Source: a virus. From it: a stretch of DNA of 53,865 bases. The notes below the pieces were generated by a model, which was given only the letters and a program-made list of their open reading frames with translations, made no database searches and was not told the origin of the DNA. The position numbers and the translations under genes are program-made. The stretch spans positions 1 to 53,865 of the IMG/VR virus record IMGVR_UViG_3300032282_004842; one strand, written 5' to 3'. This document shows, piece after piece, positions 14,128 to 40,994 of the stretch (positions are counted from its first letter, which is position 1; the number at the start of each line of letters is the position of its first letter).

Positions 14128-15990
14128 TTATCCAACATTTGTGTAATCTCTTTTATTAAGAGAATTCACAATGCTTTTAGCGAACATCGGGTGATTCTCT
14201 AGGTCGGCTCTCCATCTATCTTGATTAACATTAGATTCAAGGGATATTTTAACATCACTATACCCTGTACGGTTGTCAACAGAGGTTGGGGTTGCGGTTG
14301 GGGTTGGGGTTGGAAGTGATTGAGCTCTTATTTTTTTATTTTCATCATTAGCCATTTTGGTGGTTGTTGATTTAAGTTCATTTGTTACTTTTCCTGCCTC
14401 TCCTTCACCCTTTACAATATCCTTTAAAAATTTATTTGCAAAGGCAATATAGCTATCAACACCACCTCTTAAAGATGGGTTAGCTACCTTAGCAAATTGA
14501 ACTTTCATCATTGCAACTATTTCACTAACGTTTAGTGCCATTTTTTGTGTTTCAGTATATTGAGCCTTTGCAATATCCTCTGTCGACATTTTTTTGAATG
14601 TCTCCTGATTTTCCAATAATATCTTTTTTTGATTTTCAGTTAAATCACCTAACGCAATTTCTTTTAATCCTTGGAATTGGTCTGACATGTTTGATACATC
14701 AATTACCATTCTTCCACCTTTCATTCTAGAAATGTTGGTTAAAAATTCTTTTTGTTCTGGTTTTAAATCTAAACCTCTAGCCATTAATTCAGTTGCCGCA
14801 GCAGACCTTTCCGCTGAAGCAATTGCGATTTTACCTAAATCTTTAAAATCCATACCAAGTTCACCCGCTAATGCTCTAACTTTTCTTAAATTTACACCTG
14901 TAAGTTCAAATTTACCTTGTTCTTTATTATATGTTGCCAATGAACCGGCAACACCAATTAGTGCATCTTGTAATCCCTCAACATTATTTGTTGCCATATA
15001 CATAAGTTTTAATGGGTCATTGAAATCTCCAATTGCACCACCGATTGCCTGTAAATTAGCAGATAAATTTATTGCTTTATCAGGGTCAAAAACATCTTCG
15101 GCAATTTTAAAAATATCAGACATGTTCATTCTAAACTCAACTGATTTTTGAACCATTCGATTTAAACCTTCAACACCTTTAGAGAATCCATATTCATTAA
15201 TTCTACTAATATTGTCTGCCGTTTCTTTAACTACTTTTCTGGCGTTTAATCCTAACCTTAGTGATGATTCCCCACCTTTTTCAAATGAATCTAATGTATT
15301 TTCGGCGGATACACCAACCAATTCATATTGTCTGAAATAACTACCTAATGTTCCCATATCCTCAACGAACGCTCTTGAAACAGATGGTAATTTCCCCATC
15401 ACTTCAGTACTAAATGATGATAATCTACCAGTTTCTCTCATCATTTTAATTACAGTATCGGAAACATCTTCTAATTGATAACCAAAGGCGGCCGCGGGTT
15501 GTATGGTGTCCCTAATATTGTCCCTTAGAGCCTCTGACATATCTCCTGATATACTAAGTGCGGAATTTACATCATTATGTAATTTTACTTGGTCTTTTAA
15601 TATATCCTTTATACCATTTAATGAAGCTACAAGTCCGTTCTGTATTATTGTTTGAAAACCTTTACCGATAGAGCCTTCTTTACCAAAAAAACTCTTTACC
15701 ACATCCGATACCGTTTGAAGTATTACTGATGGTTCAATTATGGAAGGACCACTAGTATAACTTTTTACTGAGGAACTAAGATTTTGAACACTTAAAAAAT
15801 CCGGTGTGTTAATATTTTGTGTGTCAGTTGTGTTTGTTGTTGGTTCTTTTGAATTATATGTTGACCAATAAGAATTAAAATTATTCATTAAAGAAACATT
15901 GGATTTCACTTCTGTGCAGTCCATAAATTCTTTCTTATAGTCATTATAAGAAAGTCCTGATTTAATATCTTTAATAAGATTTGCGGCCAT
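14128..15990 (-). CDS. Tail tape measure protein
   Basis: 620 aa, mostly helical with many small residues. Features typical of phage tape measures: an internal helical repeat-like core (RLGLNARKVVKETADNISRI, NLSANLQAIGGAIGDFNDPL), the segment LAGELGMDFKDLGKIAIASA followed by ELMARGLDLKPEQKEF, and a C-terminal Thr/Pro stretch (PTPTPTATPT). A tape measure sets tail length and is ejected through the tube. At 620 aa it would specify a short to medium tail (T4 gp29 is 590 aa). Directly upstream lie the chaperone and its frameshift extension, the usual arrangement. TATTTATA ends only 3 nt before the ATG; the next in-frame ATG is at residue 23. Confidence 0.85.
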   Translation of the reverse strand: MAANLIKDIKSGLSYNDYKKEFMDCTEVKSNVSLMNNFNSYWSTYNSKEPTTNTTDTQNINTPDFLSVQNLSSSVKSYTSGPSIIEPSVILQTVSDVVKSFFGKEGSIGKGFQTIIQNGLVASLNGIKDILKDQVKLHNDVNSALSISGDMSEALRDNIRDTIQPAAAFGYQLEDVSDTVIKMMRETGRLSSFSTEVMGKLPSVSRAFVEDMGTLGSYFRQYELVGVSAENTLDSFEKGGESSLRLGLNARKVVKETADNISRINEYGFSKGVEGLNRMVQKSVEFRMNMSDIFKIAEDVFDPDKAINLSANLQAIGGAIGDFNDPLKLMYMATNNVEGLQDALIGVAGSLATYNKEQGKFELTGVNLRKVRALAGELGMDFKDLGKIAIASAERSAAATELMARGLDLKPEQKEFLTNISRMKGGRMVIDVSNMSDQFQGLKEIALGDLTENQKKILLENQETFKKMSTEDIAKAQYTETQKMALNVSEIVAMMKVQFAKVANPSLRGGVDSYIAFANKFLKDIVKGEGEAGKVTNELKSTTTKMANDENKKIRAQSLPTPTPTATPTSVDNRTGYSDVKISLESNVNQDRWRADLENHPMFAKSIVNSLNKRDYTNVG

Positions 15991-22159: not shown

Positions 22160-22762
22160 TTATCCGTTTTTAACGTAATTGTAAAGTATTTCACTTATAT
22201 CCTCTTTACTACTATAATTACTATCTTTAATTTTTTTAATAAAAATATTAATTAGATTTTTATAATAATCTATGGGAATATTTTCGTAAGTTTTACTTAT
22301 ATTTGAGTTTATTTTGATTTTATCATCAAATAATTTATTAATTTCTCTTAATTTTCTAATTGCAAAATCATCAGCAACATTTTCCAAATATTTCATAAAT
22401 TTTGCACCTTCATCGACGGAAACATCACCATTATAAATTCCGAACATTTTATCAATACCATACTTTTTATATTGATATTGATGAGCAACTTCATGAAATA
22501 AGACATAAAGAAAATTTGATAATGGTAAATCTAATGATTTTTCATTAATAACAACTCTATCGACTAAAGACAAACCCATCGCACCATGTTTAAGTGATTC
22601 AATATTAATTTTTTGACATCCTGATTTTTTAACAAAATCACTTATAAAACGCATTAAATAAACGGAATCAGGATATCTTTCTGAAACTTTAACAGTTAAT
22701 TCATCAAACCCTTCCTGTTCTAACAGTAGTTTTAATTGGTTTTCATTTATTATTATTTTCAT
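22160..22762 (-). CDS. Zinc metallopeptidase-like protein (HExxH) in the neck operon
   Basis: 200 aa. The segment FLYVLFHEVAHQYQYKKYG holds H90-E91-x-x-H94, the zinc-binding HExxH motif, and YLENVADDFAIRKL (E127, D131) supplies the downstream acidic residues of gluzincin-type peptidases. The N-terminus KIIINENQLKLLLEQEG resembles the start of the partial protein at 53596, so it may be a virion-targeting tag. The gene overlaps the neck gene by an ATGA and is 2 nt before the tail terminator-like gene, so the enzyme may act in virion maturation or in cell entry. Substrate unknown; a peptidase activity is inferred from the motif. Confidence 0.65.
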   Translation of the reverse strand: MKIIINENQLKLLLEQEGFDELTVKVSERYPDSVYLMRFISDFVKKSGCQKINIESLKHGAMGLSLVDRVVINEKSLDLPLSNFLYVLFHEVAHQYQYKKYGIDKMFGIYNGDVSVDEGAKFMKYLENVADDFAIRKLREINKLFDDKIKINSNISKTYENIPIDYYKNLINIFIKKIKDSNYSSKEDISEILYNYVKNG

Positions 22763-23321: not shown

Positions 23322-26210
23322 ATGCAAAGTACCATACCTGAAATAGAGGCGAGGGACATATTGACAAAGTATGAGGGTTTTAATAATTATTTATTAGAAT
23401 TCAAAAAAAAGTTCTTAGAAGTTAAGAATTTTAAGTTAACTCGTCCACAAGCTGAATATGTGATTAAGTACCACGAAGTAGTACCTCGTGTTGCAAAAAA
23501 GTATATCAACGTTGCATCAAATTTTGGTGAAAAACTGATGGAAGATAAACATCTTCCAAAAGTACCAGAAAAAATATGGTGTGAAAAATTATTATGTGAA
23601 AGTGATAAAGCTTATCATATTTGGGGTAGGGTAAATGAAAGTGAGAAAAACTACGCAATGTGGTTACCCAAATCATCCATAATTCAAGAAGAAAAAAAAT
23701 TAAATAGAGAAGTCGATTATTCACCATATTCAAAGAGACCACCAATGGAACATCAAAAAGTTGCCATTGAAAAATTATTGGCAAATGATAGGTATATCCT
23801 TGCAGATGATATGGGCCTCGGTAAAGCAGAATTTGTTGAAAATAAAGTATTTACACCTTATGGTAGAAAAAGAATTGGTGACTTAAAAATTGGTGATGAA
23901 GTTATAGGTAGTGATGGTAAAAAATGTAATGTTCAAGGTGTCTATCCTCAAGGAATTAAAGATTTATATAGAGTAACATTTAACGATGGTGTTTCTGTCT
24001 TAGTCTGTAAAGAACATTTGTTTTCTGTTAGGGCACGAAGTTTTGGTCATAATACTAAAAATTCTCGTAATAAAAAAGAAATTGTTTTATCTATTGGTCA
24101 AATGATTGATGAAGAATTATTTTTAGAAGTCTCAGGTGAGAAAAATAATATTAATAGAAATTATAAATTTAAAACTTATTTTAAGGAAAAAGGGGGTAAT
24201 AGTAAGTGGCAAATACCTATTGTTAAACCAATTGAATTTAATTCTAACGAATTGGAATTAAACCCTTATTTATTAGGGTTGATTTTAGGTGATGGGGGTA
24301 TAACACAAAAAGGTGTTTCTTTTACAACTGAGGATGTTGAAATTGTTAATTATATTAAACCTATTTTACCTGAAAATTCACAAATTACGGAAAATAAAAA
24401 TTCAAAATATGGTTATAGATTAACAAAAAAAACAGGACATACTAATCCGATAATTCAAATTTTAAAAGAATTAAATTTGATGGGTTGCGGTTCGCATAAT
24501 AAATTTATTCCAACCAAATATAAATACTCATCAATTAATGATAGATTAGAAATTTTAAAAGGTTTAATGGATACTGATGGGACTTGTTCTATCGGTAAAA
24601 AAGGAAATTTTGAAGGGACTGAATTTTCAACAGTATCAGAAAGATTGTGTGATGATGTTATTGAAATTGTTCATAGTTTAGGTGGTATTGCCAGAAAAAA
24701 AAGTAGAACAACTAACTATACATATAAGGGTGAAAAAAAAGAAGGTAAAAAATCTTATAGAGTTAATATAAAATTACCATCAGGGATGAATCCATTTAAA
24801 CTTAAAAGAAAATACGATTTATACAATACTCCCGAAAAATATAAGGTTGGTAGATATATTAAAGATATTAAATTTGAGGGTAATGGTGAGGCCATTTGTA
24901 TTTCAGTAGATTCTCCTGATAAATTGTATGTAACTGAACACGCAATTGTTACTCATAATACAACATCCGCAATCATTGCGTCCATGGAAAGTGGAGCAAA
25001 AAAAGTTCTTATCATTTGTCCAGCATCATTAAAGATTAACTGGCAAAGGGAGATTGAAAACTATTCTGATAAAAAAGTTTTAATTGTTGAGGGTAAAAAG
25101 TGGGGGTCTACTTTTGATTATTACATCATAAATTACGATATAATTAAAAATTACCATTCTATGGAATCGGTTGCTTTAGGTGAAGAAATACGACAACCAA
25201 TACTAAAAGAAAAATTTGATTTAGTTATCATCGATGAGGCCCACATGATATCTAACCCAACGGCAAACAGAACCAAATTAATTAATGATATAGTTGAAAA
25301 GATACCTAAAGTTTGGTTATTATCAGGAACACCAATGACATCAAGACCAATAAATTATTATAATATTCTTAAAATTGTTAATTCCCCTATTGCATTAAAT
25401 TGGCAGACGTATGTAAAAAGATACTGCGGTGGATATCAATTTACTGTTAATGGTAAAAAGATTTGGAATACGGGTGGCGCAACTAATTTAGACGAACTAA
25501 GAGAAAGGACTAAAAATATTGTTCTTAGAAGAATGAAAACGGATATATTAGATTTACCAGATAAAATCATCACACCTATATTTTTAGATTTGAAAAGTAC
25601 TTTCTATGATGAAGAATTGGAAGACTTCATGAGGATTACTAATGAGAATAAAAATAAAGAATCGTTAAGTATTACTATTAATCGACTAATGAAGGTTAGA
25701 CAGGTTATATCATATGAAAAGGTGGAGTACACTTCGGAAATCATTGATAGATGTTTGGAACAGGGTAAAAAGGTTATTGTATTCACAAACTTCACAATGA
25801 CACTTGATATGTTACACGAAAAATACAAAAAGAATTCGGTCGTTCTTGATGGTAGAATGTCAAAAGAAAAAAGACAACAGAGTGTTGATAGATTTCAGAG
25901 TGAAGATAAGGTAAAGATTTTTATTTCAAATATTATTGCCGGTGGAGTGGGAATTACATTAACTGAAGCTGAGGTTGTAATTATGAATGACTTATCATTT
26001 GTTCCAGCTCACCATAGTCAAGCGGAAGATAGGGCGTTTAGATACGGACAAAAGAAAAATGTAATGGTTTATTACCCGATATTTGAAAATACGATGGAAA
26101 AAATTGTATATAATATTTTAAATAAGAAAAAGAACATTATTGACCAAGTAATGGGTGATGGGGATTTTTCAGAAAGTTTTGCAACATCTTTACTTAAAGA
26201 GTTGGTTTAA
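23322..26210 (+). CDS. SNF2-family (UvsW/SMARCAL1-like) helicase interrupted by an intein
   Basis: 962 aa including a 378-aa intein; the mature enzyme would have 584 aa. Walker A is rebuilt by splicing to DDMGLGK|TTSAII. Further motifs are Ia (KVLIICPASLKINW), DEAH (VIIDEAH, about residue 635), III (VWLLSGTPMTSRP), V (IFISNIIAGGVGI) and VI (QAEDRAFRYGQ, about 901-911). The last one is the SNF2 form QAEDRxxRxGQ. In T4, UvsW remodels branched DNA; SMARCAL1-like proteins anneal strands. It is transcribed divergently from the neck operon with only 32 nt between starts. Start choice: ATG 23322, the first ATG after an A/T-rich leader. Confidence 0.9.
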   Translation: MQSTIPEIEARDILTKYEGFNNYLLEFKKKFLEVKNFKLTRPQAEYVIKYHEVVPRVAKKYINVASNFGEKLMEDKHLPKVPEKIWCEKLLCESDKAYHIWGRVNESEKNYAMWLPKSSIIQEEKKLNREVDYSPYSKRPPMEHQKVAIEKLLANDRYILADDMGLGKAEFVENKVFTPYGRKRIGDLKIGDEVIGSDGKKCNVQGVYPQGIKDLYRVTFNDGVSVLVCKEHLFSVRARSFGHNTKNSRNKKEIVLSIGQMIDEELFLEVSGEKNNINRNYKFKTYFKEKGGNSKWQIPIVKPIEFNSNELELNPYLLGLILGDGGITQKGVSFTTEDVEIVNYIKPILPENSQITENKNSKYGYRLTKKTGHTNPIIQILKELNLMGCGSHNKFIPTKYKYSSINDRLEILKGLMDTDGTCSIGKKGNFEGTEFSTVSERLCDDVIEIVHSLGGIARKKSRTTNYTYKGEKKEGKKSYRVNIKLPSGMNPFKLKRKYDLYNTPEKYKVGRYIKDIKFEGNGEAICISVDSPDKLYVTEHAIVTHNTTSAIIASMESGAKKVLIICPASLKINWQREIENYSDKKVLIVEGKKWGSTFDYYIINYDIIKNYHSMESVALGEEIRQPILKEKFDLVIIDEAHMISNPTANRTKLINDIVEKIPKVWLLSGTPMTSRPINYYNILKIVNSPIALNWQTYVKRYCGGYQFTVNGKKIWNTGGATNLDELRERTKNIVLRRMKTDILDLPDKIITPIFLDLKSTFYDEELEDFMRITNENKNKESLSITINRLMKVRQVISYEKVEYTSEIIDRCLEQGKKVIVFTNFTMTLDMLHEKYKKNSVVLDGRMSKEKRQQSVDRFQSEDKVKIFISNIIAGGVGITLTEAEVVIMNDLSFVPAHHSQAEDRAFRYGQKKNVMVYYPIFENTMEKIVYNILNKKKNIIDQVMGDGDFSESFATSLLKELV
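23826..24959 (+). other. Intein with LAGLIDADG homing endonuclease, N-terminal Ala
   Basis: In-frame insertion of 378 aa starting AEFVENKVFTPYGRKRIGDL after GLGK and ending IVTHN before TTSAI. Blocks visible: A (GDEVIGSDG), B (GVSVLVCKEHLFSV, with Cys for the usual Thr in TxxH), two LAGLIDADG motifs (LLGLILGDGGI about 317-327; LKGLMDTDG about 411-419), and F/G (DKLYVTEHAIVTHN). Removal leaves a perfect GxGKTT. Residue 1 is Ala rather than Cys or Ser, and the +1 residue is Thr; Ala1 inteins such as KlbA splice by a non-standard route. Insertion at the P-loop is a known intein hot spot. Confidence 0.92.
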
Positions 26211-28460: not shown

Positions 28461-30443
28461 TTATATATCAATGGCGTGGTAAGCATAATCAACACCATCG
28501 GTTTTGATTATTTCATCCTCATTACTGATTGTACTTTTTTCTTGTGATAATAAAACTTTGCGGTTGTAATCAACCCAATTTTTATCCACCAATTTAATAC
28601 TATCATCAACATACATAAAGAATGGGTCTCGTTTAATTTTATTCCAAAATATAACTTCACTATCTGATAGTGTCATTACCTCATCATACTTATCTTGACC
28701 ATCCTCACTTATTGGAAATCCGTTAACTAATTCACATTGTTTACTTGTGAAGTATTGTCTATCTTCTGGTTTTTCAACTAAGATATCATTACGAATTTCA
28801 GGACTAAAAACCACTAATAAAGGTTCAATACGTTTGTTAAAGTTACTCAAATATCTCGGTACGTTATAATCTCCCGTCATATCGGGGTTTTCATTTAGTT
28901 CCTTTTCAGAAATCATATAACAGTTAATCTCAAGATAATTGTTTGGCATTGATTTACCGTGTGTATTATAATATTCCTCTTGTTGTTTTTTTGTTGGTTT
29001 ACTTATTTTCTGAACATCCCCTGAAGACTTCTTAGTACCATTATTAATGTAATAAATTGTTTCACCAAGACCCGCATTATAGTTATTCTGTAAAATCAAT
29101 TCCATATGGGCTTGTCTTGACATTAATGACCCAGCTTTCGTTACCTTCTGTATGTGTTTCTTATAATCCTCAACAGATTGTTTAACACGAGATTTGTTTG
29201 CTATTTTTGATAATGGAATCTGTTTATTATAAATCTTTTCTACATATTGGAAATACAATTCAACAAATGATATACCATCACCATTTAATAGGTATTTAAA
29301 TCCTTCATCCAAGAATTCAACAATGTATTGTTGTAATTTTTTAGACTTAATGGTATTACCCGTTAATTTGATTTTTTCTTTTCCTTTCTTCATCAATTTA
29401 ATGATGTAGTTTTTTCTTGATACATTAATACATGATGGAGCGATATAGTCGATATCAAGACCCATTTCATTTCTCATGAAGATGTCATTAAATTCTGCGG
29501 TGTCCGCTTCAATTCCTTTATATTCTTTACCTTCAATAACTAACTCGTTATACCCTTTACCAACATAAACTGTATCATTTATATTCTCAGGAGTCTCAAA
29601 GTTTACACCGTCCGTATCCATTACAAGTGGTTTATAACCTTTCTTTTCAAAGAACATAATCATCATACGAAGACATTGACGACCAATACATGTAATTGTT
29701 TCACCCGAATCCATCTCACCCCACGGAAATACATGTGGTGCGGACAATGAACCAAAATAAGCATTGATAAAGATTTTAATTGGTAATTGTTTACGGTCGT
29801 ACATTTCCGACTGAACCGGGTCACTATCTTTTAGTTCTCCGGCCAAATGTTTATATTTTATACGAATGTTACGGAAATACTTCAACATCGATTTCTGTAC
29901 ACCCATGATATCACAATCAGGGAAAATATCATATACTAATTGTATTGATGGATAAAGTGAAGAATAGTCAAACTTAACAATGTTCTTAGCATAACCCACA
30001 GTTAATAAACGAGATAAACCACCTGTGAATGGTCGTTTAGAATCTTTCGCGGGAACAGCTAAATTATTTTCATATGACCAAGCTAACATGATAATTTTCC
30101 ATAAAGTGGCGGTACCCATTGTTGCAATTCTCTCATATGTTGTTGGTACAAGTTTTGAAATCAAAAATGTTGACTGACTAAAAGAATCATCAACCACCAT
30201 AGTTTCATACAAGTCATCATCAAGATATTGTTCAACAATTCTACTACCTGACCATATTTCAAATTTACCCGGATATTTCTCCAATAAATTATCAGTTCCA
30301 GGTTCACCAATTTTCTTGTAGTTACCCGTTTTTGGATTTACATAATATAATTCATTATCCAAATATATTTTTGAAATCCATGCACCGTCCACATAAACAC
30401 GATTAGGTTTTTCTTTTTCTAAGTACTTGGTGATGTATTTCAA
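28461..30443 (-). CDS. gp43: Family B DNA polymerase, C-terminal part (palm, fingers, thumb)
   Basis: 660 codons from the TTG at 30443; the frame is open back to 30515, directly after the TGA that ends the N-terminal part. Polymerase motifs A (FDYSSLYPS, residues 158-166 of this part), B (KQLPIKIFINAYFGSL) and C (MDTDG, D276 and D278) are present. It has no ATG near its start; the first internal one is at codon 82. It is therefore most likely the continuation of the same gene. It replicates phage DNA. It ends flush with gp13 on the opposite strand. Confidence 0.9.
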   Translation of the reverse strand: MKYITKYLEKEKPNRVYVDGAWISKIYLDNELYYVNPKTGNYKKIGEPGTDNLLEKYPGKFEIWSGSRIVEQYLDDDLYETMVVDDSFSQSTFLISKLVPTTYERIATMGTATLWKIIMLAWSYENNLAVPAKDSKRPFTGGLSRLLTVGYAKNIVKFDYSSLYPSIQLVYDIFPDCDIMGVQKSMLKYFRNIRIKYKHLAGELKDSDPVQSEMYDRKQLPIKIFINAYFGSLSAPHVFPWGEMDSGETITCIGRQCLRMMIMFFEKKGYKPLVMDTDGVNFETPENINDTVYVGKGYNELVIEGKEYKGIEADTAEFNDIFMRNEMGLDIDYIAPSCINVSRKNYIIKLMKKGKEKIKLTGNTIKSKKLQQYIVEFLDEGFKYLLNGDGISFVELYFQYVEKIYNKQIPLSKIANKSRVKQSVEDYKKHIQKVTKAGSLMSRQAHMELILQNNYNAGLGETIYYINNGTKKSSGDVQKISKPTKKQQEEYYNTHGKSMPNNYLEINCYMISEKELNENPDMTGDYNVPRYLSNFNKRIEPLLVVFSPEIRNDILVEKPEDRQYFTSKQCELVNGFPISEDGQDKYDEVMTLSDSEVIFWNKIKRDPFFMYVDDSIKLVDKNWVDYNRKVLLSQEKSTISNEDEIIKTDGVDYAYHAIDI

Positions 30444-30515: not shown

Positions 30516-31358
30516 TCACCATATATTATGTTGAATGTATTCTTCTTGCTCGTTTGCAAGTTTCAACATACCCTTCTTCTCTCTAATTCCTTGTTTTGTA
30601 AATATTTGAGTTAATTCCTTAATATTAACTCCCAATATTTCTGCTCGTTTTAAAATAAACGGCCAATCAAAAAATGCTGAGTTATAACCACCAATAATTG
30701 TTGGTTTCTTTTCTTTTATTATGTTGAAGAATTCCTCGATACATTTCTTTTCACCGTCCTCACCAAATGCGGGGATTGTCTTTTCCAAACCACGGTTATC
30801 CTTAACACCAATCAATATAATATTACAGGTTAAAGGGTCTAAACCCGTGGTCTCGATATCAAAAACAAATCTATTTACACCAGAATAATCTTCAATACCT
30901 TTAAAAAGTCTTTTCTTTTTCTGTATAAGGTACTGTTCAACAGGGTTTAGTATTGTAAAAGATGATTTAAATTTATCACCCCATGGGTCAATTCCACCCT
31001 CTTTAAAAAAATTGATTAATTCAGTATACCCTTTTAAACTTTTAACCAAAAAAGTTTGTCCATTTTCTAATCGAGTATTCCCTTCCGTTCTTAATTTTTC
31101 AATCAAGATACCATATTCACCCATTTTTTTCTTTTGAAGTGTTTTGTTTCCTTGATAAAAATTAAATTCAGATAAGTCACCAACCCATAAAAATGGTGTG
31201 AAGGTGTCAGGTTTAACGATTTTACCCCTTTCCGGGTCTTGGATAACTTTGTAGATTTTGTTGGTTCGGTAATCATACTCAACCCCTACTATGTATTCTT
31301 CAGGGTCCCAACCATTTAAGAAGTTTTCAATAACTTCTTGCGAAATAATTTCTTTCAT
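30516..31358 (-). CDS. gp43: Family B DNA polymerase, N-terminal part (3'-5' exonuclease), ended by in-frame TGA
   Basis: 280 aa. Exonuclease I (FVFDIETTGLD, D167 and E169) and II (GGYNSAFFDWP, Y225/N226 and D231) are present. The frame stops with TGA at 30518-30516 after EYIQHNIW, and continues with FNIIDIAHSVRRAQAINSEI, the expected next residues of this family and the exonuclease III motif (YNxxD type). The whole frame would give about 965 aa (T4 gp43: 898). The TGA may be a nonsense mutation (GGA to TGA is one change), a sequencing error or a readthrough site. A Bacteroidota-type promoter and a leader hairpin lie upstream. Confidence 0.88.
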   Translation of the reverse strand: MKEIISQEVIENFLNGWDPEEYIVGVEYDYRTNKIYKVIQDPERGKIVKPDTFTPFLWVGDLSEFNFYQGNKTLQKKKMGEYGILIEKLRTEGNTRLENGQTFLVKSLKGYTELINFFKEGGIDPWGDKFKSSFTILNPVEQYLIQKKKRLFKGIEDYSGVNRFVFDIETTGLDPLTCNIILIGVKDNRGLEKTIPAFGEDGEKKCIEEFFNIIKEKKPTIIGGYNSAFFDWPFILKRAEILGVNIKELTQIFTKQGIREKKGMLKLANEQEEYIQHNIW

Positions 31359-31824: not shown

Positions 31825-32385
31825 TTAGATTTGTACAAGTGTAACTATAACCGATGGGATTGCGGGTATACTATTTGATGGTGTGGCAAAAACAATTATA
31901 TTTGGACTCGTTACTTGAAACGTTAATTCTAAATATTCATTTGATAATAATGTTATCACAAAATTCCAAGAAGCGACCAATAAAACACCATTATTGGCTA
32001 AGGTTATTTTTGTGTTGGAAGATGGAACATCCGCTCCATTTTTTCTCAACCATATATACATATCTTCAGAAGAACCTCCCTGTGTTTTTTGTACTTGAGC
32101 GGAAAATTGTAAATTATATGTTGCACCACTTGAAACGGTAAACTTAGTTCCATCATTGACTGTTATACCATTATTTTCTGAAATTGTTGAAGCACTTAAA
32201 ACATATGTGGTATTTGCGGTAAATCCCGACTGTGTAGTTGTATGGTAAAAAGAACCGTAAAACTTACCTGTGGCCATATTACCTCTCTTAATTTTATACG
32301 TTACCCCACCTTGTGAAACTGGTAATTCAGAATTTGAGGTTAATCCTGTTAATTCTGGTAATTGTGATATTGGTAAACTAGCCAT
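31825..32385 (-). CDS. Tail-fibre-like protein with C1q/TNF-type beta domain
   Basis: 186 aa. The N-terminus MASLPISQLPELTGLTSNSE is a common fibre attachment segment (ISQLPE... type). Residues about 85-186 form a beta sandwich resembling C1q/TNF-like trimer heads (YNLQFSAQVQKTQGG, EDMYIWLRKNGADVPSSNTK, VASWNFVITLLSNEYLELTF). Such heads sit at the tips of fibres and trimerise. It lies between a small beta protein and a TPT-repeat adhesin and has its own TATTTATA, 4 nt before the ATG. Confidence 0.65.
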   Translation of the reverse strand: MASLPISQLPELTGLTSNSELPVSQGGVTYKIKRGNMATGKFYGSFYHTTTQSGFTANTTYVLSASTISENNGITVNDGTKFTVSSGATYNLQFSAQVQKTQGGSSEDMYIWLRKNGADVPSSNTKITLANNGVLLVASWNFVITLLSNEYLELTFQVTSPNIIVFATPSNSIPAIPSVIVTLVQI

Positions 32386-32415: not shown

Positions 32416-34395
32416 TTAAAATCCATTTGTTGATGGATTATAAAAAACTAAACCTGTCACATTTGTTGTTTTTGTTATGGTCGGTGTTGAGTAGTTAAAT
32501 GTCATAACATCACCACCACCAATCTCACCAAATTGTATTCTTATTGGGTAATAAGTTCCGGCGGTTAATGAAAATGTACCTGATACTTCCTGAGTTCCAT
32601 GTGCTCCACCATTGTTTATATTGGCATTAGCGGTGGTAAAACCTGATAATGCATTTGCACCAATCCAAAGATAAGAACCATCATCACTCGATAAGTAGAA
32701 TGTATATGTTTCTGTTGTTGTCGATTTGAAATATCCTAACCATTGACAACTAAAATTAGACCCATCATCAGTTCCAGGTTCAGTTATTGTTGTTGTTTGA
32801 ACCGAGGTTGCGGGATTCGCACCAAAAGTTGTTGGAGTTGCAGTTGCGAAAAACGCCGGATTTTCGTTATGGTATCCAGAATACGTTGTTTTATATAAAC
32901 CAGCACTAAATGTGTTTGTTGGTGTTACTGTTGGTGTTGGAGTTGGAGTTGGAGGTATCGACGTTGAGGTATATGAACCATTTCCTGTAAATGTAAGGAT
33001 TGTGTAAATACCGTTTGTTGTAACTGTCGGTGAACCTGAATATGTACCAAGTTGGTTTGTTGGTATGGATAAAATAACAACACCATTAGAACCATTACCT
33101 CCATTACCGCTATTTGTGGCACCACCTCCACCACCAGAACCATATCCTGTTGCGTTGGCGCCCGCACCACTTGTAGTGTTTCCACCATTACCTCCACCAC
33201 CGGTACCGCCAGATGCTAAAGTCGAACCATTAGCCCCACCTCCACCACCACCGCCGGCATAAACTACCGCCGAACCTGTGATGTTGAATGTCGTACCGTT
33301 ACCACCATTTCCACCTGCATCGGGAAATGAACCATTTGTACCTACCTGAGATGAACCACCTCCACCACCTGCACCGTTACTATCGGCAGTTACACTACCT
33401 CCGTTAAATCCATTAGTTCCCGTTCCACCTGTTGACCTTGAAGTTCCACCTCCTCCACCACCACCGCCTGATGCTCCGTTAGAACCATTAGTTGCAGTTG
33501 ATGGTGTTGTGTTGTAACCCCCACCGCCACCACCTATTGCAGTTACAGATAAACTTGTCCCACTAAATGTCGTTGTACCACCATTGGTTCCTTGACCTGT
33601 ACCTGTTGAACCTGTACCACCATTTGCTATTATAACATTGTATGTAACATTTTTAGATAAATTGGTTGAACCTGTGACAACTTGTCCGGCACCACCACCA
33701 CCTCCCCAGTTACCACCACCACCTCCACCACCACCTACAACTAAGTACGTGATTGGGGTTAATAATGGAGTCGATGTCGGTGTTGGGGTAAGAGTATTAG
33801 TTGGTGTTAATGTTGGAGTAGGCGTTAACGAACTTGTTGGGGTAAGTGTATTGGTTGGGGTAAGTGTCAGAGTAGGGGTTCTTGTTGGGGTTAAAGTATT
33901 GGTTGGGGTAATAGTGTTAGTAGGGGTGAGAGTAGGTGTGAGGGTTCTTGTTGGGGTAAGAGTATTAGTTGGTGTTAATGTTGGAGTAGGCGTTAACGAA
34001 CTTGTTGGGGTTAAAGTATTGGTTGGGGTAATAGTGTTAGTAGGGGTGAGAGTAGGTGTGAGGGTTCTTGTTGGCGTAATGGTATTGGTTGGAGTAAGAG
34101 TATTTGTTGGTGTTGGACTAACAGCGGACTCAATTAATATTTTGGAATAATTTTCTTGTAAAATTGGGTCTAAGTTTTCCTGTAAAAGAACAGAACTAGA
34201 GTCTTCAATATATAATGTACATGTTTTGTTATAAAACGAAAAATATAACTCATAAGTACCATAAAAATAGTCAGTACTATAATAATAAGGGATAACGACA
34301 GAGCCAAGGCTAATCGTACCGCCTGTGTCAGGATAGTAAGTGATGTCTGCAGTCTGTCCACTATAGTTGTTTGACGTTAATATTATGGTTGTCAT
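32416..34395 (-). CDS. Adhesin with TPT linker, poly-Gly domain and PA14-like C-terminus
   Basis: 659 aa. Parts: a small N-terminal beta domain (1-92); a Thr/Pro linker (about 93-213); a Gly-rich domain (about 217-445: [17 protein letters not shown] and many G3-G9 runs), resembling the polyglycine sandwich of T-even gp38 adhesins; a second short TPT linker near 495; and a C-terminal PA14/GLEYA-like domain (about 508-659: [41 protein letters not shown]), a type known to bind carbohydrate. It is a strong candidate receptor-binding protein. TATTTATC lies 23 nt upstream. The linker DNA shows long exact duplications. Confidence 0.78.
33757..34119 (-). repeat. Duplicated DNA in the TPT linker of the adhesin
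   Basis: A 74-bp stretch at 33881-33954 is repeated exactly at 34001-34074 (120 bp apart). A second block of about 60 bp near 33782-33842 recurs near 33950-34010 (168 bp apart). The pattern points to recent recombination or slippage. Confidence 0.88.
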
Positions 34396-34502: not shown

Positions 34503-35999
34503 TTACGAAGTACTTGGGGTTGGGGTTGGTGTGATAGTTCTTGTTGGGGTTGGTGTAATGGTTCTTGTTGGTGTAGGAGTAGGTGTGATAGTTCTTGTTG
34601 GTGTAGGAGTTGGAGTAACATTAATAATTCCCACAACAGAATCAACACAGTTCACATTACATTCAACAATATTAAAGTTTGGTTTTATTTCGGATAGATA
34701 ATGGTGTCTAACATGTACAAAATCTAAAGGTTGTTCATAAAATTGAATTTGTTTAAAATTAAAACATGATGTACCCATATTATGTACACCACCGGCATAT
34801 TGAGTACCTGAACCCCAAGATTGTATAAAAGGTTGTTCACCCCTATCAGATGGAATAACTTCTTCCCAATCTTTTAATTTATATATCGGTCTACCGTTTA
34901 GATAAATTTTTAAAATACCTAATCTTCTTTCTTTTTCATCAGCCCATTTTTTATTTAACTCCTCAACCTCAGTATATATTGTTGTTTGTGTTGATGTTAC
35001 GGAACTACCAGATTCTGGTACATATGGAATAACCTTTACTCCGGGAATTAAATCATTCCAACCCCCATCATTCTCAAGATTACAATCGGTATATCTACTG
35101 TATCTATCAAATGTTATTGTAATATTAAAATCATCACTTGTTCCATTATTACATAATGGTAGTGTTTGTCCCGATGCAATATAATATGATTCTGTATATC
35201 CCGATAAGGTATTACATATACCCGAATAATGAATTGATGTCCATTTAAGTCTACCATCATCTGTAAATGAGAAAGATAAATTATTATCGGCGTAATCTTC
35301 TATATCAGATTCATTTCTAACCCCAAGATAGTATATGACATTACCGTCAGACCATGGAAGAGAATCTTTATTTAAAACAAAATCAATTGTCCATCCTTTT
35401 TCTGTTCTTCTTTTAACTGAATAATCACAATTATTAACACCAGCACCATGGTTAATTTGGTACGCCCATGGTTTTGCTGATGGAATTGGGTCTCTTGGAC
35501 AACAAATGGTTGTCGTTATCCCTGTTCCTGAAAATTGTAAAGTACAATCAACGGTAGAACCCGTTGTAAATCCTGTAACATTTAAAGAAAACGGATTTGA
35601 AAGTGTATTATTATACCCATTTTCAATAAAATAATGGGTTTCCCCACTACTATTAATAAATTCGTAAACATCATTTTTTAAAATAGTATCAGAATTACTT
35701 AATCGGTTGGTAAAACCACTATATGATAGTGTCCATGTGTATGCTGAATATGGATATGTTGGGTTATTAACCGTATTATTGAATTCAGATAAAGATATTG
35801 TATTTCTTACACAATCCGCATTTGTTAGTCCTGTGGTGTTTACACTTAAACCGGAATAGTTAATTGCGGTGTTAATATTTAACACATCAGAATTGTAATC
35901 TGATTCTGTTTTGGATATCTCATAATCATGATATTCTGAAGAATCAATCTTCAAATCCATGTACGTACCCCAAAATTTTAATATATTTTGACTATTCAT
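34503..35999 (-). CDS. Beta-rich structural protein with C-terminal TPT tail
   Basis: 498 aa. A large Asn/Ser/Tyr-rich beta region with repeated strand patterns (YTWTLSYSGFTNRLSNSD, WTIDFVLNKDSLPWSDGNVI, NITITFDRYSRYTDCN, LGILKIYLNGRPIYKLKDWE) resembles concanavalin-like (LamG) domains in tail proteins. It has several cysteines (CCPRDP, CNVNCVD) and ends with about 37 residues of Thr-Pro repeats (ITPTPTPTRT). The C-terminal tail is the same linker type as in the other two TPT proteins, here without a domain behind it. TATTTATA lies 7 nt before the ATG. Confidence 0.68.
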   Translation of the reverse strand: MNSQNILKFWGTYMDLKIDSSEYHDYEISKTESDYNSDVLNINTAINYSGLSVNTTGLTNADCVRNTISLSEFNNTVNNPTYPYSAYTWTLSYSGFTNRLSNSDTILKNDVYEFINSSGETHYFIENGYNNTLSNPFSLNVTGFTTGSTVDCTLQFSGTGITTTICCPRDPIPSAKPWAYQINHGAGVNNCDYSVKRRTEKGWTIDFVLNKDSLPWSDGNVIYYLGVRNESDIEDYADNNLSFSFTDDGRLKWTSIHYSGICNTLSGYTESYYIASGQTLPLCNNGTSDDFNITITFDRYSRYTDCNLENDGGWNDLIPGVKVIPYVPESGSSVTSTQTTIYTEVEELNKKWADEKERRLGILKIYLNGRPIYKLKDWEEVIPSDRGEQPFIQSWGSGTQYAGGVHNMGTSCFNFKQIQFYEQPLDFVHVRHHYLSEIKPNFNIVECNVNCVDSVVGIINVTPTPTPTRTITPTPTPTRTITPTPTRTITPTPTPSTS

Positions 36000-36006
36000 A
36001 TTCTAT

Positions 36007-36014
36007 TATAAATA
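36007..36014 (-). promoter_or_regulatory. TATTTATA motif, divergent pair
   Basis: Minus strand GATATTTATAATAGAATATG, 7 nt before ATG 35999. Confidence 0.5.
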
Positions 36015-36031
36015 TCTTTCGTTTCTTTTGA

Positions 36032-36039
36032 TATTTATA
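36032..36039 (+). promoter_or_regulatory. TATTTATA motif, divergent pair
   Basis: Plus strand GATATTTATATAATAAAC, 16 nt before ATG 36056. With the minus-strand motif at 36007 it forms a divergent late-promoter pair at the junction of the two strand blocks. Confidence 0.5.
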
Positions 36040-36055
36040 TAATAAACTTGTTATA

Positions 36056-36808
36056 ATGGATAAATACATAAAAAACATAATTGAAGAGACTTTTAAGTCT
36101 AAAAAACAACAAAGATTATTTTTTGCTAAAGCGAATGATAAGTCTTTATCCAAAAAAGAAAGATTAAAGTGGGGAAATATGGCTAAGGAATTTTCTGACG
36201 ACACCAATTATAAAAAATTACCTGATGAAGTTAAAAAAGAAGTTGATGAAATTGTGGATGCAAAAGGTAATTTTGGTATGAGTAAAATACCAAAAACAAG
36301 AGAATCGAGTGGTACGAGTAAAAAAACGACCGACCAAATTGTAAAAACAGCATACGGAACTATGGGTAGTACCGCGGCTCGTGGTGCTGTCACATCTTTA
36401 AGATATTGGGCGGAATCTGATATGAGTAAAACTCTTGGATACGAAAAAACATTAGGTCAAGATGTAGACAAGGATGATGCGGAAGATTACTTTAAAGATG
36501 AATTAGGTATAAAAGAGCCAGAAGCGGATGAAAGATTAAGTCAAATGGGCTACGATGATAATTTAAAAGGTGATAAAGTTAGATTAATTGAGAACCCCAA
36601 AAAATATGTTCAAGATTATGTCGAAAGTGTACTTTCAAAAAAATCAAAATCATCTGATTTAGTTAATAAAGAGGTTGATGAGGATATTGAGAAAGATATT
36701 GAACCAATTATTAAAAAACAAATTTTAGCATTAAAAAATACATTAACCAAAAATAACGTATCTGTAAAAGATGTAATTAAAATTTTGAATAAAAAAGATA
36801 ATGAATAA
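36056..36808 (+). CDS. Virion-associated protein with KSKxQQR motif
   Basis: 250 aa, charged and mostly helical. The N-terminus MDKYIKNIIEETFKSKKQQR contains a short amphipathic helix with an IxE motif, then KSKKQQRLFFAKAND, like the KSKAQQRF motif of small phage proteins (DUF3008-like). MAKEFSDDTNYKKLP follows, then a KPIRES-like linker and a long helical C-terminal part (EKDIEPIIKKQILALKN). I do not know its role. It overlaps the next gene by 8 nt, and has its own TATTTATA 16 nt upstream, so it begins the first plus-strand operon. Confidence 0.65.
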   Translation: MDKYIKNIIEETFKSKKQQRLFFAKANDKSLSKKERLKWGNMAKEFSDDTNYKKLPDEVKKEVDEIVDAKGNFGMSKIPKTRESSGTSKKTTDQIVKTAYGTMGSTAARGAVTSLRYWAESDMSKTLGYEKTLGQDVDKDDAEDYFKDELGIKEPEADERLSQMGYDDNLKGDKVRLIENPKKYVQDYVESVLSKKSKSSDLVNKEVDEDIEKDIEPIIKKQILALKNTLTKNNVSVKDVIKILNKKDNE

Positions 36809-37298
36809 AGATTTAAAAGGTAGAATTTTTAATGTTCCACAGGATATTCTGGATAAAATAAACCATACCATTGTTAGTTTAAATGGTCAAAATGTGCGTG
36901 GGATACAAAGAGCAAAAAAAATTTTACAAGATAAATCAGTAAAATACGGTCAATTAAAGAGAATAATCCACGACATTCAAAACATAGATAAAGTAAAAGA
37001 TAGATTAAAATATGATTTATGTGGTGGTGATTTAATGGAAAGATGGGCTAATCAACATTTACAAGGTGAAAGAGATTTAATTAGTAATCGTAAAGATTCT
37101 AAGAAAAATGCGGATGAAATGTCAAGTATGACGGGTGAAAGAAAAAATAGTCACCTAAAAAAACACACAAAAAAATTCAGTTTTAAAATACCGACTAATC
37201 TTATTAAAAGTAATTCACATAAAAGCTCAATATCTCCAATTACATCACTTGGTTTATTTGAAGAGGTCGATAAAATAAAAAAATTAATTAAATACTAA
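36801..37298 (+). CDS. Uncharacterised phage protein, 165 aa
   Basis: 165 aa, Lys-rich. The conserved-looking core is VKDRLKYDLCGGDLMERWAN followed by QHLQGERDLI, preceded by a helix pair (IQRAKKILQDKSVKYGQLKR). The C-terminal third is low complexity and basic (KKHTKKFSFKIPTNLIKSNS). It overlaps the gene before it (8 nt) and the 731-aa repeat protein starts 1 nt after its stop, so they form one operon. Function unknown; a DNA or virion-binding role would suit the basic tail. Confidence 0.6.
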   Translation: MNKDLKGRIFNVPQDILDKINHTIVSLNGQNVRGIQRAKKILQDKSVKYGQLKRIIHDIQNIDKVKDRLKYDLCGGDLMERWANQHLQGERDLISNRKDSKKNADEMSSMTGERKNSHLKKHTKKFSFKIPTNLIKSNSHKSSISPITSLGLFEEVDKIKKLIKY

Positions 37299-37299
37299 G

Positions 37300-39495
37300 A
37301 TGCCAACACCATTAGAAATTATTGCAATTCAACAAAGAGCTTTATTGTTGGCAGCAAATGGGTATAACTACCCAAATAATTACAATTCAACGAGTTCAAA
37401 TGCGTTATCTGACGGAGACGACAAGGGTAAAGGTGAATTAAATGGTAATGTTGGGACTAGAACTGATATTAATGAAAGAAATGTTTTATTATCTAAAAAT
37501 AACTATAATTCAACAAATAATTATAGTGCATCCAATTTAGATTCATTATCTGATGGCGACAATAAAGGTAAAGGTGAATTAAATGGTAATATTGGTTCGA
37601 AAACAGATATAACCGAAAGAAACACGTTAATTTCAAAAAATAATTACGGACCAACAAATGGTTATGGATTAACAAATAAAGATTCATTATCTGATGGTGA
37701 TGAGAAAGGTAGAGGAGAAAATACCAATGGACAAGTTGGTAATAAAACTGATATTAACGAAAGAAATGTTTTATTATCTAAAAACAATTACAATTCATTA
37801 AATGGTTATGGATTAACCAATAAAAATGCGTTATCTGACGGAGATGACAAGGGTAAAGGTGAATTAAATGGTAATGTTGGGACTATAACTGATATTAATG
37901 AAAGAGCAAAATTATTAGCGAAAAACGATTATAACTACACAAATAACTATAGTTCTATTAATAAAGATGCTATATCCGATGGTGACGAAAAAGGTAAAGG
38001 TGAATTAAATAACAATATCGGTTCAAAAACCGATATTAACGAAAGAAACACTTTATTATCTAAAAATAATTACGGACCAACAAACGGTTACGGATTAACA
38101 AACCCAAATGCATTATCTGACGGAGATGAAAAAGGTAGGGGAGAAAATGTAAATGGACAAATTGGAACTAGAGCTGATATTAATGAAAGAACAAAATTAT
38201 TAGCAAAAAACGATTATAATTCATTAAACGGATATGGGTTAACAAATAGGGATGCGATATCTGACGGAGATGAAAAAGGTAGGGGAGAAAATGTAAATGG
38301 ACAAATTGGTACCATAACAGATATTAATGAAAGAATAAAATTATTGGCGATTAATGATTATAACTACAATAACAACTATGGATTAACAAATGGAGATGCC
38401 ATATCTGATGGTGATGAGAAAGGTAGAGGAGAAAATGTAAATGGACAAATTGGAACCAATACTGATATTAATGAAAGAACAAAATTATTAGCGAAAAACG
38501 ATTATAACTACACAAATAACTACGGTTCAACCAATAAAGACGCAATATCCGATGGTGATGAAAAAGGTAGAGGAGAAAACTCATCAGGACAAATTGGTAC
38601 CAATATTGATATTAATGAAAGAAACACATTGTTGGCTATTAATGATTATAATTACACTAATAATTACGGTTATGGTAATCCAGATGCTTTATCTGATGGT
38701 GATGAGAAAGGTAGAGGAGAAAATAGTGCTTATCCACTTATTGGTACAAAAACTGATATTTTTGGTAATAGTGTAGGTCCCGGTAGAATAGGACTGCAAG
38801 CTATGAACATATACGATGATAACTTCAAGTATAATGTTAATAATCCAAATGCGGTATCTGATGGGGATGAAAAGGGTAGAGGAGAAAACGCTTCAGGACA
38901 AATTGGTACGAAGACCGATATCTTTGGTAACTCAATAGCACCTGGTAGGGTTGGTTTAAAAGCTATGAATATTTATTCTGACTTTTTCCAATATGATGTC
39001 AATAATCCTAATGCAATATCTGACGGAGATGAGAAAGGTAGAGGAGAAAACGCTTCAGGACAAATTGGTACGAATACCGATATATTTGGTAATTCAATAG
39101 CACCTGGTAGATTAGGTTTATTAGCTAAAAATATCTATGACAAAAGTTTTCAGTACAGCTCAATCAATCCAAACGCATTATCTGATGGTGATGAAAAAGG
39201 TAAGGGTGAGTTTGGTGGTAGCATTGGTTCTAAAACTGATATCTATGGTAATGCTGTGGGAGACCCGGGTAGGGTCGGTTTATTGGCCATTAATACTTAT
39301 AATAGTCTTTTCCAATACAACACAATCAATCCAAACGCATTATCTGATGGTGATGAAAAAGGTAGGGGTGATAATAGTGGATATCCTCTTATTGGTACAA
39401 AGACCGATATCTTTGGTAATTCTATAGGGCCAGGTAGAATTGACCTATTGGCAAAAAATAAATACACAACGATTAAATCATATCCAGATTTTTAA
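37300..39495 (+). CDS. 14-repeat structural protein (SDGDxKGxGE repeats)
   Basis: 731 aa, almost wholly made of 14 tandem repeats of about 47-55 residues. Each has the core (A)LSDGDEKGRGE, an Asn/Gly stretch ending IGTKTDI, then NERN (9 copies) or FGNSxGPGR / YGNAVGDPGR (5 later copies), and a Tyr-rich stretch (NDYNYTNNYG). The D-x-D-x-x-G-x-G-E core resembles dockerin or thrombospondin calcium-binding loops. The repeats change type after copy nine, so two subarrays were amplified separately. It ends LAKNKYTTIKSYPDF. A whisker, spike-coat or internal scaffold role is possible but unproven. Its stop overlaps the next ATG (TAATG). Confidence 0.72.
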   Translation: MPTPLEIIAIQQRALLLAANGYNYPNNYNSTSSNALSDGDDKGKGELNGNVGTRTDINERNVLLSKNNYNSTNNYSASNLDSLSDGDNKGKGELNGNIGSKTDITERNTLISKNNYGPTNGYGLTNKDSLSDGDEKGRGENTNGQVGNKTDINERNVLLSKNNYNSLNGYGLTNKNALSDGDDKGKGELNGNVGTITDINERAKLLAKNDYNYTNNYSSINKDAISDGDEKGKGELNNNIGSKTDINERNTLLSKNNYGPTNGYGLTNPNALSDGDEKGRGENVNGQIGTRADINERTKLLAKNDYNSLNGYGLTNRDAISDGDEKGRGENVNGQIGTITDINERIKLLAINDYNYNNNYGLTNGDAISDGDEKGRGENVNGQIGTNTDINERTKLLAKNDYNYTNNYGSTNKDAISDGDEKGRGENSSGQIGTNIDINERNTLLAINDYNYTNNYGYGNPDALSDGDEKGRGENSAYPLIGTKTDIFGNSVGPGRIGLQAMNIYDDNFKYNVNNPNAVSDGDEKGRGENASGQIGTKTDIFGNSIAPGRVGLKAMNIYSDFFQYDVNNPNAISDGDEKGRGENASGQIGTNTDIFGNSIAPGRLGLLAKNIYDKSFQYSSINPNALSDGDEKGKGEFGGSIGSKTDIYGNAVGDPGRVGLLAINTYNSLFQYNTINPNALSDGDEKGRGDNSGYPLIGTKTDIFGNSIGPGRIDLLAKNKYTTIKSYPDF
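37399..39420 (+). repeat. DNA array of 14 units of about 141-165 bp
   Basis: Repeats of TCTGATGGTGATGAGAAAGG-type cores. Neighbouring copies are similar but rarely identical, so the array is older than the TPT arrays. Confidence 0.85.
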
Positions 39496-40385
39496 TGATA
39501 AACTTAAATAATATATTGTCTCGAATTTTATTAGAAGCGCCGAATGGTAGTATCAATAAGAGATTAAAGGATGCAATTATAAACCGAAATCCTGTTTCGT
39601 TTTATTACAATGGACCTAAAGGTGAGGTTTTACCGGGAAGAAGAGTTAGAGCCGAATTGGTTGCCATGGGATTAACAAAAAAAGGTAATTTGGTTGTTAG
39701 AGGTTGGGTTCAACCACCTTCCACATCCAAAAAAGGTTTCGATAGTAGTAAACAAAATACGGCCGAATACGGTTGGAGATTGTTTATCATATCGAGAATG
39801 TCAGGTATCAACATTTATGAAGATGAAACTTTTAACCAAAAAAGACCTGGTTATAATGAAAACGGAGATAAAAGTTTAACAAGTATTGAAGTAAAAAGTA
39901 ATTGGGGAACATTACCAACACCCCAAAAAGAAATACCGAAACCGACTGTTACACCTACTTCTGAACCTGAAAAATCAAAAACCGAATTACCTCAACCTAA
40001 ACCAAAAGAAAAACCTTCACCATTACCTCAACCCGAAGTTAAAAGGGACATTGAAGTTTACAATGATTTAAAAAATAAAATAACCAACATAAACAACAAT
40101 AAAGAAATATCACCTGAAAATGTTAAAATAGGTATTGATACGCTTTACAAGAAAAAATTAGATGATTGGGTTAAATCACAGTCTGAAGTTGGTGGTAATA
40201 CAAAACCGGGAGAAGGAACTAGAAGAAAATTAGAAAAAGATTCAGAAACCGAATTGTTTAGATTATTAAAGAATGATAATGTAAAGGTTGGTAATACCGA
40301 ACCACAACCGGAAACCGACATTGATAATAACGAAACCCCATTAATGGAATCAATAAAAAGAATAAAGACTTTAATTTTCTTTTAA
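39495..40385 (+). CDS. WYL-like domain virion protein
   Basis: 296 aa. The N-terminus MINLNNILSRILLEAPNGS is a short helix ending LLE|A, like a capsid-targeting peptide with a gp21-type cleavage site. Residues about 20-130 (LKDAIINRNPVSFYYNGPKG, RRVRAELVAMGLTKKGNLVV, YGWRLFIISRMSGINIYEDE) follow the WYL-domain pattern (AIxxRxxVxxxY...R.V.P..LG...G...WRLF.I.RI..). WYL domains are ligand-binding modules usually seen in defence and transcription regulators. A Pro/Lys/Glu linker and a helical, charged tail follow. The gene overlaps the repeat gene by TAATG. Confidence 0.55.
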   Translation: MINLNNILSRILLEAPNGSINKRLKDAIINRNPVSFYYNGPKGEVLPGRRVRAELVAMGLTKKGNLVVRGWVQPPSTSKKGFDSSKQNTAEYGWRLFIISRMSGINIYEDETFNQKRPGYNENGDKSLTSIEVKSNWGTLPTPQKEIPKPTVTPTSEPEKSKTELPQPKPKEKPSPLPQPEVKRDIEVYNDLKNKITNINNNKEISPENVKIGIDTLYKKKLDDWVKSQSEVGGNTKPGEGTRRKLEKDSETELFRLLKNDNVKVGNTEPQPETDIDNNETPLMESIKRIKTLIFF

Positions 40386-40415: not shown

Positions 40416-40994
40416 ATGGAAACAGGACAAGGTGTAATATCACAAAATGATTTAATGATGAAATTGGTACAGGCCAAGAAAGTCATGAATAAAGTTGAAA
40501 CGGGTAGTTTTGAAAGAGGAAATGTAGATGAATCAGTATTAAGAACTGACCCGGAAGAATTATCGGCACAATATAGTCAACAACCACAAGTTAGACAACC
40601 ACAACAAACCAATGTTAATAGAATAATGGAGTCTAAATTACCTGACGCAATTAAAAAAGCAATGATTGAAAATCCAATTCCACAAATTAGTTTAACGGAT
40701 TCATTAGATATAAATTTCGTTGAGAAGACAAAAAGATTAATGGAGAGCGAAGGTGTATCAACAAAAAAAACCGCAAATAGGCAACAATCATCTAATAATT
40801 CAACATCTAATAATAGTGACTTAGTTCCAATTATTGAGAATATTGTAAGAAAAACTGTTACAGAAATACTCGATGCTAAGTTAAATCAAATACTCACAGC
40901 CCAACAAACATTATCAATTAATGAAAATTTAGTGTTAAAAGTTGGAGATTCAATATTTAAAGGTAAAATTACTGGAGTAAATAAATCCAAGTAA
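40416..40994 (+). CDS. Uncharacterised virion-type protein, 192 aa
   Basis: 192 aa. It starts METGQGVISQNDLMMKLVQA and contains a Gln-rich linker (QQPQVRQPQQTN), RIMESKLPDAIKKAMIENPI, RLMESEGVSTKKT, and a long C-terminal helix (DLVPIIENIVRKTVTEILDA) before a small beta hairpin (LVLKVGDSIFKGKITG). The two [LI]MES motifs resemble prohead protease sites. Related arrangements occur in other large phages, but I know no function. It has A-rich sequence before its ATG. Confidence 0.6.
   Translation: METGQGVISQNDLMMKLVQAKKVMNKVETGSFERGNVDESVLRTDPEELSAQYSQQPQVRQPQQTNVNRIMESKLPDAIKKAMIENPIPQISLTDSLDINFVEKTKRLMESEGVSTKKTANRQQSSNNSTSNNSDLVPIIENIVRKTVTEILDAKLNQILTAQQTLSINENLVLKVGDSIFKGKITGVNKSK

Follow-up and report, generated by a model that had tools for sequence, protein, structure and literature searches.

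A tandem-repeat protein of variable unit number at a fixed position in T4-like phages

The repeat gene and its operon

The window, by which we mean the whole 53,865-bp virus fragment analysed here, contains an ORF (37300–39495, +) whose translation gives a protein of 731 aa with 14 tandem units. The chain opens with an N-terminal cap, MPTPLEIIAIQQR, and the first N-x-Y-x5-Y half-motif (37300–37407, +), and 36 residues precede the first core here and in nearly all relatives. Copies 1–9 (37408–38691, +), of the type written TDINER, follow at a spacing of 47–48 aa, and then copies 10–14 (38692–39492, +), of the type TDI[FY]GN...PGR, at 54–55 aa, the last of them continuing into a C-terminal cap (KNKY....YPDF; 39454–39492, +) that is kept in most of the family. 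Outside the two caps, M[PA]T-x-LE... at the N terminus and KNKY...YPDF at the C terminus, the chain is made of units, and since the C-terminal cap is itself the last half-motif, a protein of n units has n + 1 half-motifs (15 here).

The original prediction of 14 repeats in two types, nine and five, is borne out by the translation, which gives 14 cores. The exact sequence SDGDEKGRGE occurs eight times and D-x-D-x-x-G-x-G-E 13 times, against a mean of 0.006 and a maximum of 1 in 2000 residue shuffles; D-I-x-E-R follows the core in nine units (as exact TDINER in only six) and [FY]GN...PGR in the other five. The full frame, R-x6-N-x-Y-x5-Y-x6-A-x-S-x-G-D-x2-G-[KR]-G-...-[IV]-G-x3-D-I-x2-R, is longer than was first described. 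The repeat protein has neither Cys nor Trp, with N, G, S, D and P making up about 40–52% of its residues, and the chain is acidic (net −24).

The operon's first gene (36056–36808, +) encodes a 250-aa protein with the leader-like N terminus MDKYIKNIIEE and precedes the repeat gene in almost all loci. It is followed by a conserved neighbour of 165 aa (36801–37298, +) with a C-terminal FEEVxxIKKL motif, found in 39 viral contigs and supported by synteny and alignment, whose stop ends at 37298, leaving the single base originally noted before the repeat gene starts at 37300. Downstream, the repeat gene adjoins the gene of a 296-aa protein (39495–40385, +) with a leader-like MINLNNILSRILLE|APNG, a proline-rich linker and a C-terminal IKRIKTL motif; we keep the description WYL-like, which the original prediction used, on the strength of weak matches in relatives, six of the seven scanned scoring E 0.001–0.06, below threshold. 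The last gene of the conserved block (40416–40994, +) encodes a 192-aa protein ending in VGDSIFKGKITGVNK. The order 250 aa, 165 aa, repeat, WYL-like, ~190 aa and glycosyltransferase-like is constant in essentially every readable locus, and the genes of the operon overlap or nearly abut and so are probably co-expressed. Assignment of the 250-aa protein as clamp loader A was not accepted, as only two of ten members match and do so below the cut-off. A motif L.E.I.RIK.L, related to the leader-like N termini described below, is seen at the C terminus of both the 165-aa and the WYL-like protein and at the N terminus of a protein in L146 (11215–11622).

A family of variable unit number

Relatives were gathered from viral contigs using as queries the repeat protein, each of its neighbours, a ten-member alignment and a neighbour-gene profile. 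The ten-member alignment search shows the repeat family to be encoded in at least 328 stretches of IMG/VR viral contigs, 80 of which were kept. Among 86 distinct repeat proteins, the number of copies is two (11 proteins), three (5), four (49), six (16), seven (1) or 14 (4), counts to be read with the caveat that metagenome assembly can collapse repeats; four degenerate relatives exist besides. Lengths run from 125 aa, in the two-unit members, to 731 aa, and the 14-copy protein of the window is thus the extreme of a family in which four copies are commonest, a peak also found in the neighbour-based sample, which was not selected by copy number. A recognizable repeat gene is present in 73 of the 80 loci found via a neighbour gene; of the remaining seven, three lie on contigs that end on that side and four have a degenerate relative at that position. 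Eight larger records (168–311 kb) have one repeat gene each, the two matches in G006 overlapping in one frame.

The expectation that the repeat belongs to no described family agrees with the searches of Pfam, PHROGs v4, PDB sequences and phage records. Neither the 731-aa protein nor its relatives gave a convincing or consistent match in the first three; the Pfam, PHROG and PDB-sequence matches were weak and scattered, covered short stretches, differed between members and were taken as chance. With four family members and the four neighbouring genes as tblastn queries, no match came from 50,697 phage records. A pattern scan for the repeat gave none in bacterial genomes, and no convincing match to the family was found among 84,980 genomes. 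A repeat profile run against the 8394 ORFs of the fetched loci found the unit in no second protein. The family is new to the libraries searched, and tandem-repeat phage structural proteins are already known as a kind.

The original prediction took the change of unit type after copy nine as a sign of two rounds of amplification. The switch itself is real and common to all four distinct 14-copy proteins, falling at the same point in L002, L006 and L007, and is therefore ancestral to them, while two rounds are too simple an account. Copies 1–3 align in order with copies 4–6 at 76, 85 and 75% protein identity, a pairing that fits duplication of a three-unit block. Many copies, though by no means every one, have their best match at the corresponding position in other phages, an imperfect correspondence which suggests that some exchange has occurred within arrays. 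Single-unit changes also occur: over 13 kb, L034 and L036 share 99.7–99.9% identity, and one of their repeat genes is longer than the other by exactly one 141-nt unit, a difference that may be an assembly collapse. Compared with the close phage L005, the window shows 80.7% identity in the repeat protein and 88–98% in its operon neighbours. At the protein level the repeat gene is thus less conserved than any other gene of the operon, which places the constraint on the motif and not on the linker.

Tape measure proteins are long and largely helical, with a length proportional to that of the tail. A protein whose copy number changes by whole units could likewise be a length ruler of tail or head, in which the number of units sets the size, and the repeat units of tape measure genes have been studied (PMC3271669). 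The likeness to such proteins extends to being phage proteins that change in length by whole repeats; unlike them, the family consists of 47-aa units with a fixed loop motif in chains of 125–731 aa, and no sequence relation was found. A candidate of tape-measure size (14128–15990; putative) is moreover a separate gene whose product stays at 629–658 aa whether the repeat protein has 14, 7, 4 or 3 units, and contigs of 310 kb have only three or four units. This near-constant length weakens the ruler explanation, which we regard as improbable.

Conservation and predicted structure of the unit

Conservation was counted over 293 distinct units, and over 260 for the second half of the unit. Conservation is 88–100% at R, N, Y, Y, A, S, G, D, G and in the IG...DI block, and other positions drift; the second half was picked by its own [IV]G...D pattern, present in 313 of 327 units, so that the values of 100% there in part reflect this selection.

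The core had been proposed to be a calcium-binding loop, and the D-x-D-x2-G-x-G-E present in most units, together with the acidity of the chain, would suit such a role. In EF-hand and D-x-D calcium loops, the acidic ligands are conserved at positions 1, 3 and 5 along with a terminal acid. The resemblance to EF-hand or RTX repeats, a D-x-D in a glycine-rich loop, is superficial, as the ligand positions vary: position 1 is D in only 78% of the 293 units (N in 13%, T in 7%), so that the first Asp is substituted in about 22%; position 5, where an acid would be expected, is K or R in 83%; and the last acid, E at position 9, is kept in 84%. Two loop positions favour basic residues, and Pfam scans of the 731-aa protein and ten relatives gave no EF-hand, RTX or other match. 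Four orthologs that occupy this locus in other phages (L190, L200, L213 and L228) have no D-x-D-x2-G-x-G-[ED] motif, the loop being lost in all or nearly all of their units (e.g. ISPLGEGQ, YLPEDKIAV), and yet retain the DI..R and N.Y.....Y frame. As the frame outlives the loop, the helix and tyrosines are the essential part, and the calcium reading fails as a property of the family. The repeat protein is probably not calcium-binding, and we rate the opposite view as very improbable.

Both a short relative and the whole chain were modelled with AlphaFold2, and no confident fold emerged. A 220-aa relative of four units (78 sequences) gave a mean pLDDT of 59 and a pTM of 0.23, with a helix of about 13 residues in every unit and also a small hairpin, at low confidence. 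The 731-aa chain (21 sequences) gave a pLDDT of 33, with helices in copies 1–9 and copies 10–14 as periodic strands at a pLDDT of about 40–50. The short helices, spaced by loops of ~35 residues, are again of low confidence. Neither predicted model supports an autonomous fold, low confidence here not being equivalent to disorder, as a chain that folds only as a trimer, or a solenoid built on an unusual core, could fail in the same way.

Such a protein, an elongated folded fibre or solenoid on the virion surface (for example an intertwined trimer or beta-solenoid) with a length set by the number of units, would fit with regular glycine-rich units at fixed spacing, with the strands modelled for the type 2 units and with the position of the repeat gene as the least conserved in the operon, next to fibre-like genes with PTPT linkers. 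The four-unit relative, however, was modelled, at low confidence, as helix and loop with no strands, no fibre match was found in Pfam, PHROG or PDB, and members of two units (125 aa) are short for a fibre; a fibre or solenoid is in our judgement unlikely. The PTPT-linker proteins of the window resemble the repeat protein in being low-complexity repeats and probable virion proteins, one of them sharing the divergent promoter-like element described below, but differ in composition and have no motif in common with it. Fibre-like proteins with long linkers are encoded at 528–1448 (−), 32416–34395 (−) and 34503–35999 (−); that at 32416–34395 aligns only partially between close relatives, and 31825–32385 is missing from those relatives.

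Phage context and a possible role

The window has a sheath match and profile matches to tube and baseplate hub. In seven large relatives, beyond the extent of the window fragment, a T4-type (gp23-type) capsid gene and a gp21-type prohead protease gene lie about 17–22 kb to the right of the repeat operon, and beyond these come genes whose size and position would suit portal and terminase (assigned by eye). With a T4-type sheath in the window and capsid and protease in its relatives, the phage classes as T4-like on gene content.

Between the fibre-like gene at 34503 and the operon lies a divergent promoter-like element (36007–36039, no strand assigned), an inverted pair ATAAATATC / GATATTTAT that is kept ahead of the 250-aa gene in almost all of the 59 relatives compared. 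On the coding strand, TATTTATA occurs within 60 nt of 11 of the 47 gene starts of the window, where 1.07 are expected; the genes so preceded include those of the sheath, the tube, a fibre-like protein and two large proteins of the tail region, and among the same 47 starts do not include the helicase, DNA polymerase, PhoH or dUTPase genes. From this one 8-mer we infer a candidate late promoter. A reading of TATAAATA as a T4 late promoter was considered and set aside, the sequence being not enriched overall; its reverse complement is enriched on the coding strand before gene starts. Coding-strand TATTTATA / GATATTTAT stands before virion-type genes at 36007–36039 and upstream of 17581, 20733, 14089, 15990, 31811 and 32385. 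Synteny, the capsid and protease genes of relatives and the promoter-like element together make a structural context for the repeat gene likely.

In T4, the protease gp21 cuts after L/I-x-E, and proteins are directed into the head by leaders some ten residues long (PMC9026906). As with the T4 internal head proteins of that study, the 250-aa and WYL-like neighbours have [LI]xE leaders, and relatives encode a gp21-type protease. The broad range of residues 6–24 is too permissive for such leaders, a dUTPase control reaching 78% there. A narrower count still favours both neighbours: the motif falls at residues 8–20 of the 250-aa protein in 98% of relatives and in the leader of the WYL-like protein in 81%, against 0–11% elsewhere in that protein. 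In the WYL-like protein, Glu14 hardly varies among aligned rows of 32–48% identity. Unlike the T4 internal head proteins (PMC9026906), the repeat proteins have no conserved leader (59%), and the window's copy, beginning MPTPLEIIAIQQR, has none. The two leader-bearing neighbours may be packaged proteins, which does not by itself fix the location of the repeat protein. Other leader-like N termini ending in [LI]xE, possibly capsid-targeting, occur at 1818–2453 (−), 22160–22762 (−) and 53596, the second belonging to a small protein with a HEVAH metalloprotease-like motif within the tail gene region.

An overlapping operon, probable late expression and a flexible, low-complexity chain are also what might be seen for an assembly factor outside the virion, a scaffold or chaperone gone before maturation. 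Nothing specific speaks against this; a scaffold-like gene beside the capsid gene, as well as the protease gene, is located elsewhere. We consider such a factor unlikely.

The reading we favour, if tentatively, is that the repeat protein is a late, virion-associated, flexible multivalent tether with its units as docking sites. It is preferred over the others for the combination of conserved motifs with drifting spacers, variable copy number, no confident fold and a constant position in an operon that is probably late and structural. The protein would be made late and act in the virion or its assembly in this clade of T4-like phages, the chain, with no compact fold of its own, serving as a flexible row of docking sites. 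Every unit of ~47 aa would comprise a short helix (D-I-x2-R-x6-N), then N-x-Y-x5-Y and then a glycine-rich NA-x-SDGD-x2-GKG loop, and would bind a single partner subunit, the most plausible partner being another protein of the virion. The number of units would then determine the partners per chain, or the reach of the chain, and units would be gained and lost through recombination or slippage.

A more ambitious version, doubtful as it stands, would make the protein a core part of the virion in a widespread clade of uncultivated T4-like phages, with the number of docking units as an evolvable dial: each unit would recruit one copy of the partner, gain or loss of a 141-bp unit would tune stoichiometry or reach, and the second unit type of the 14-copy lineage would serve a second partner or a different geometry. 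The single fixed place of the repeat gene across the clade, on contigs of up to 310 kb, makes it probably important to these phages, and natural pairs one exact unit apart offer a clean way to ask what repeat number does in the virion.

Three further features of the window were seen. The Walker A motif of an SNF2-like helicase (23322–26210, +) is interrupted, in translation, by what looks like an intein (GLGK|AEF...VTHN|TTS). The DNA polymerase is apparently split between 28461–30443 (−) and 30516–31358 (−), the polymerase part matching PHROG 262 and the next gene having an exonuclease-like DIETTG motif. A Dps-like protein (1463–1837, −; PHROG 858, E 5.6e-16) adjoins the tail genes.
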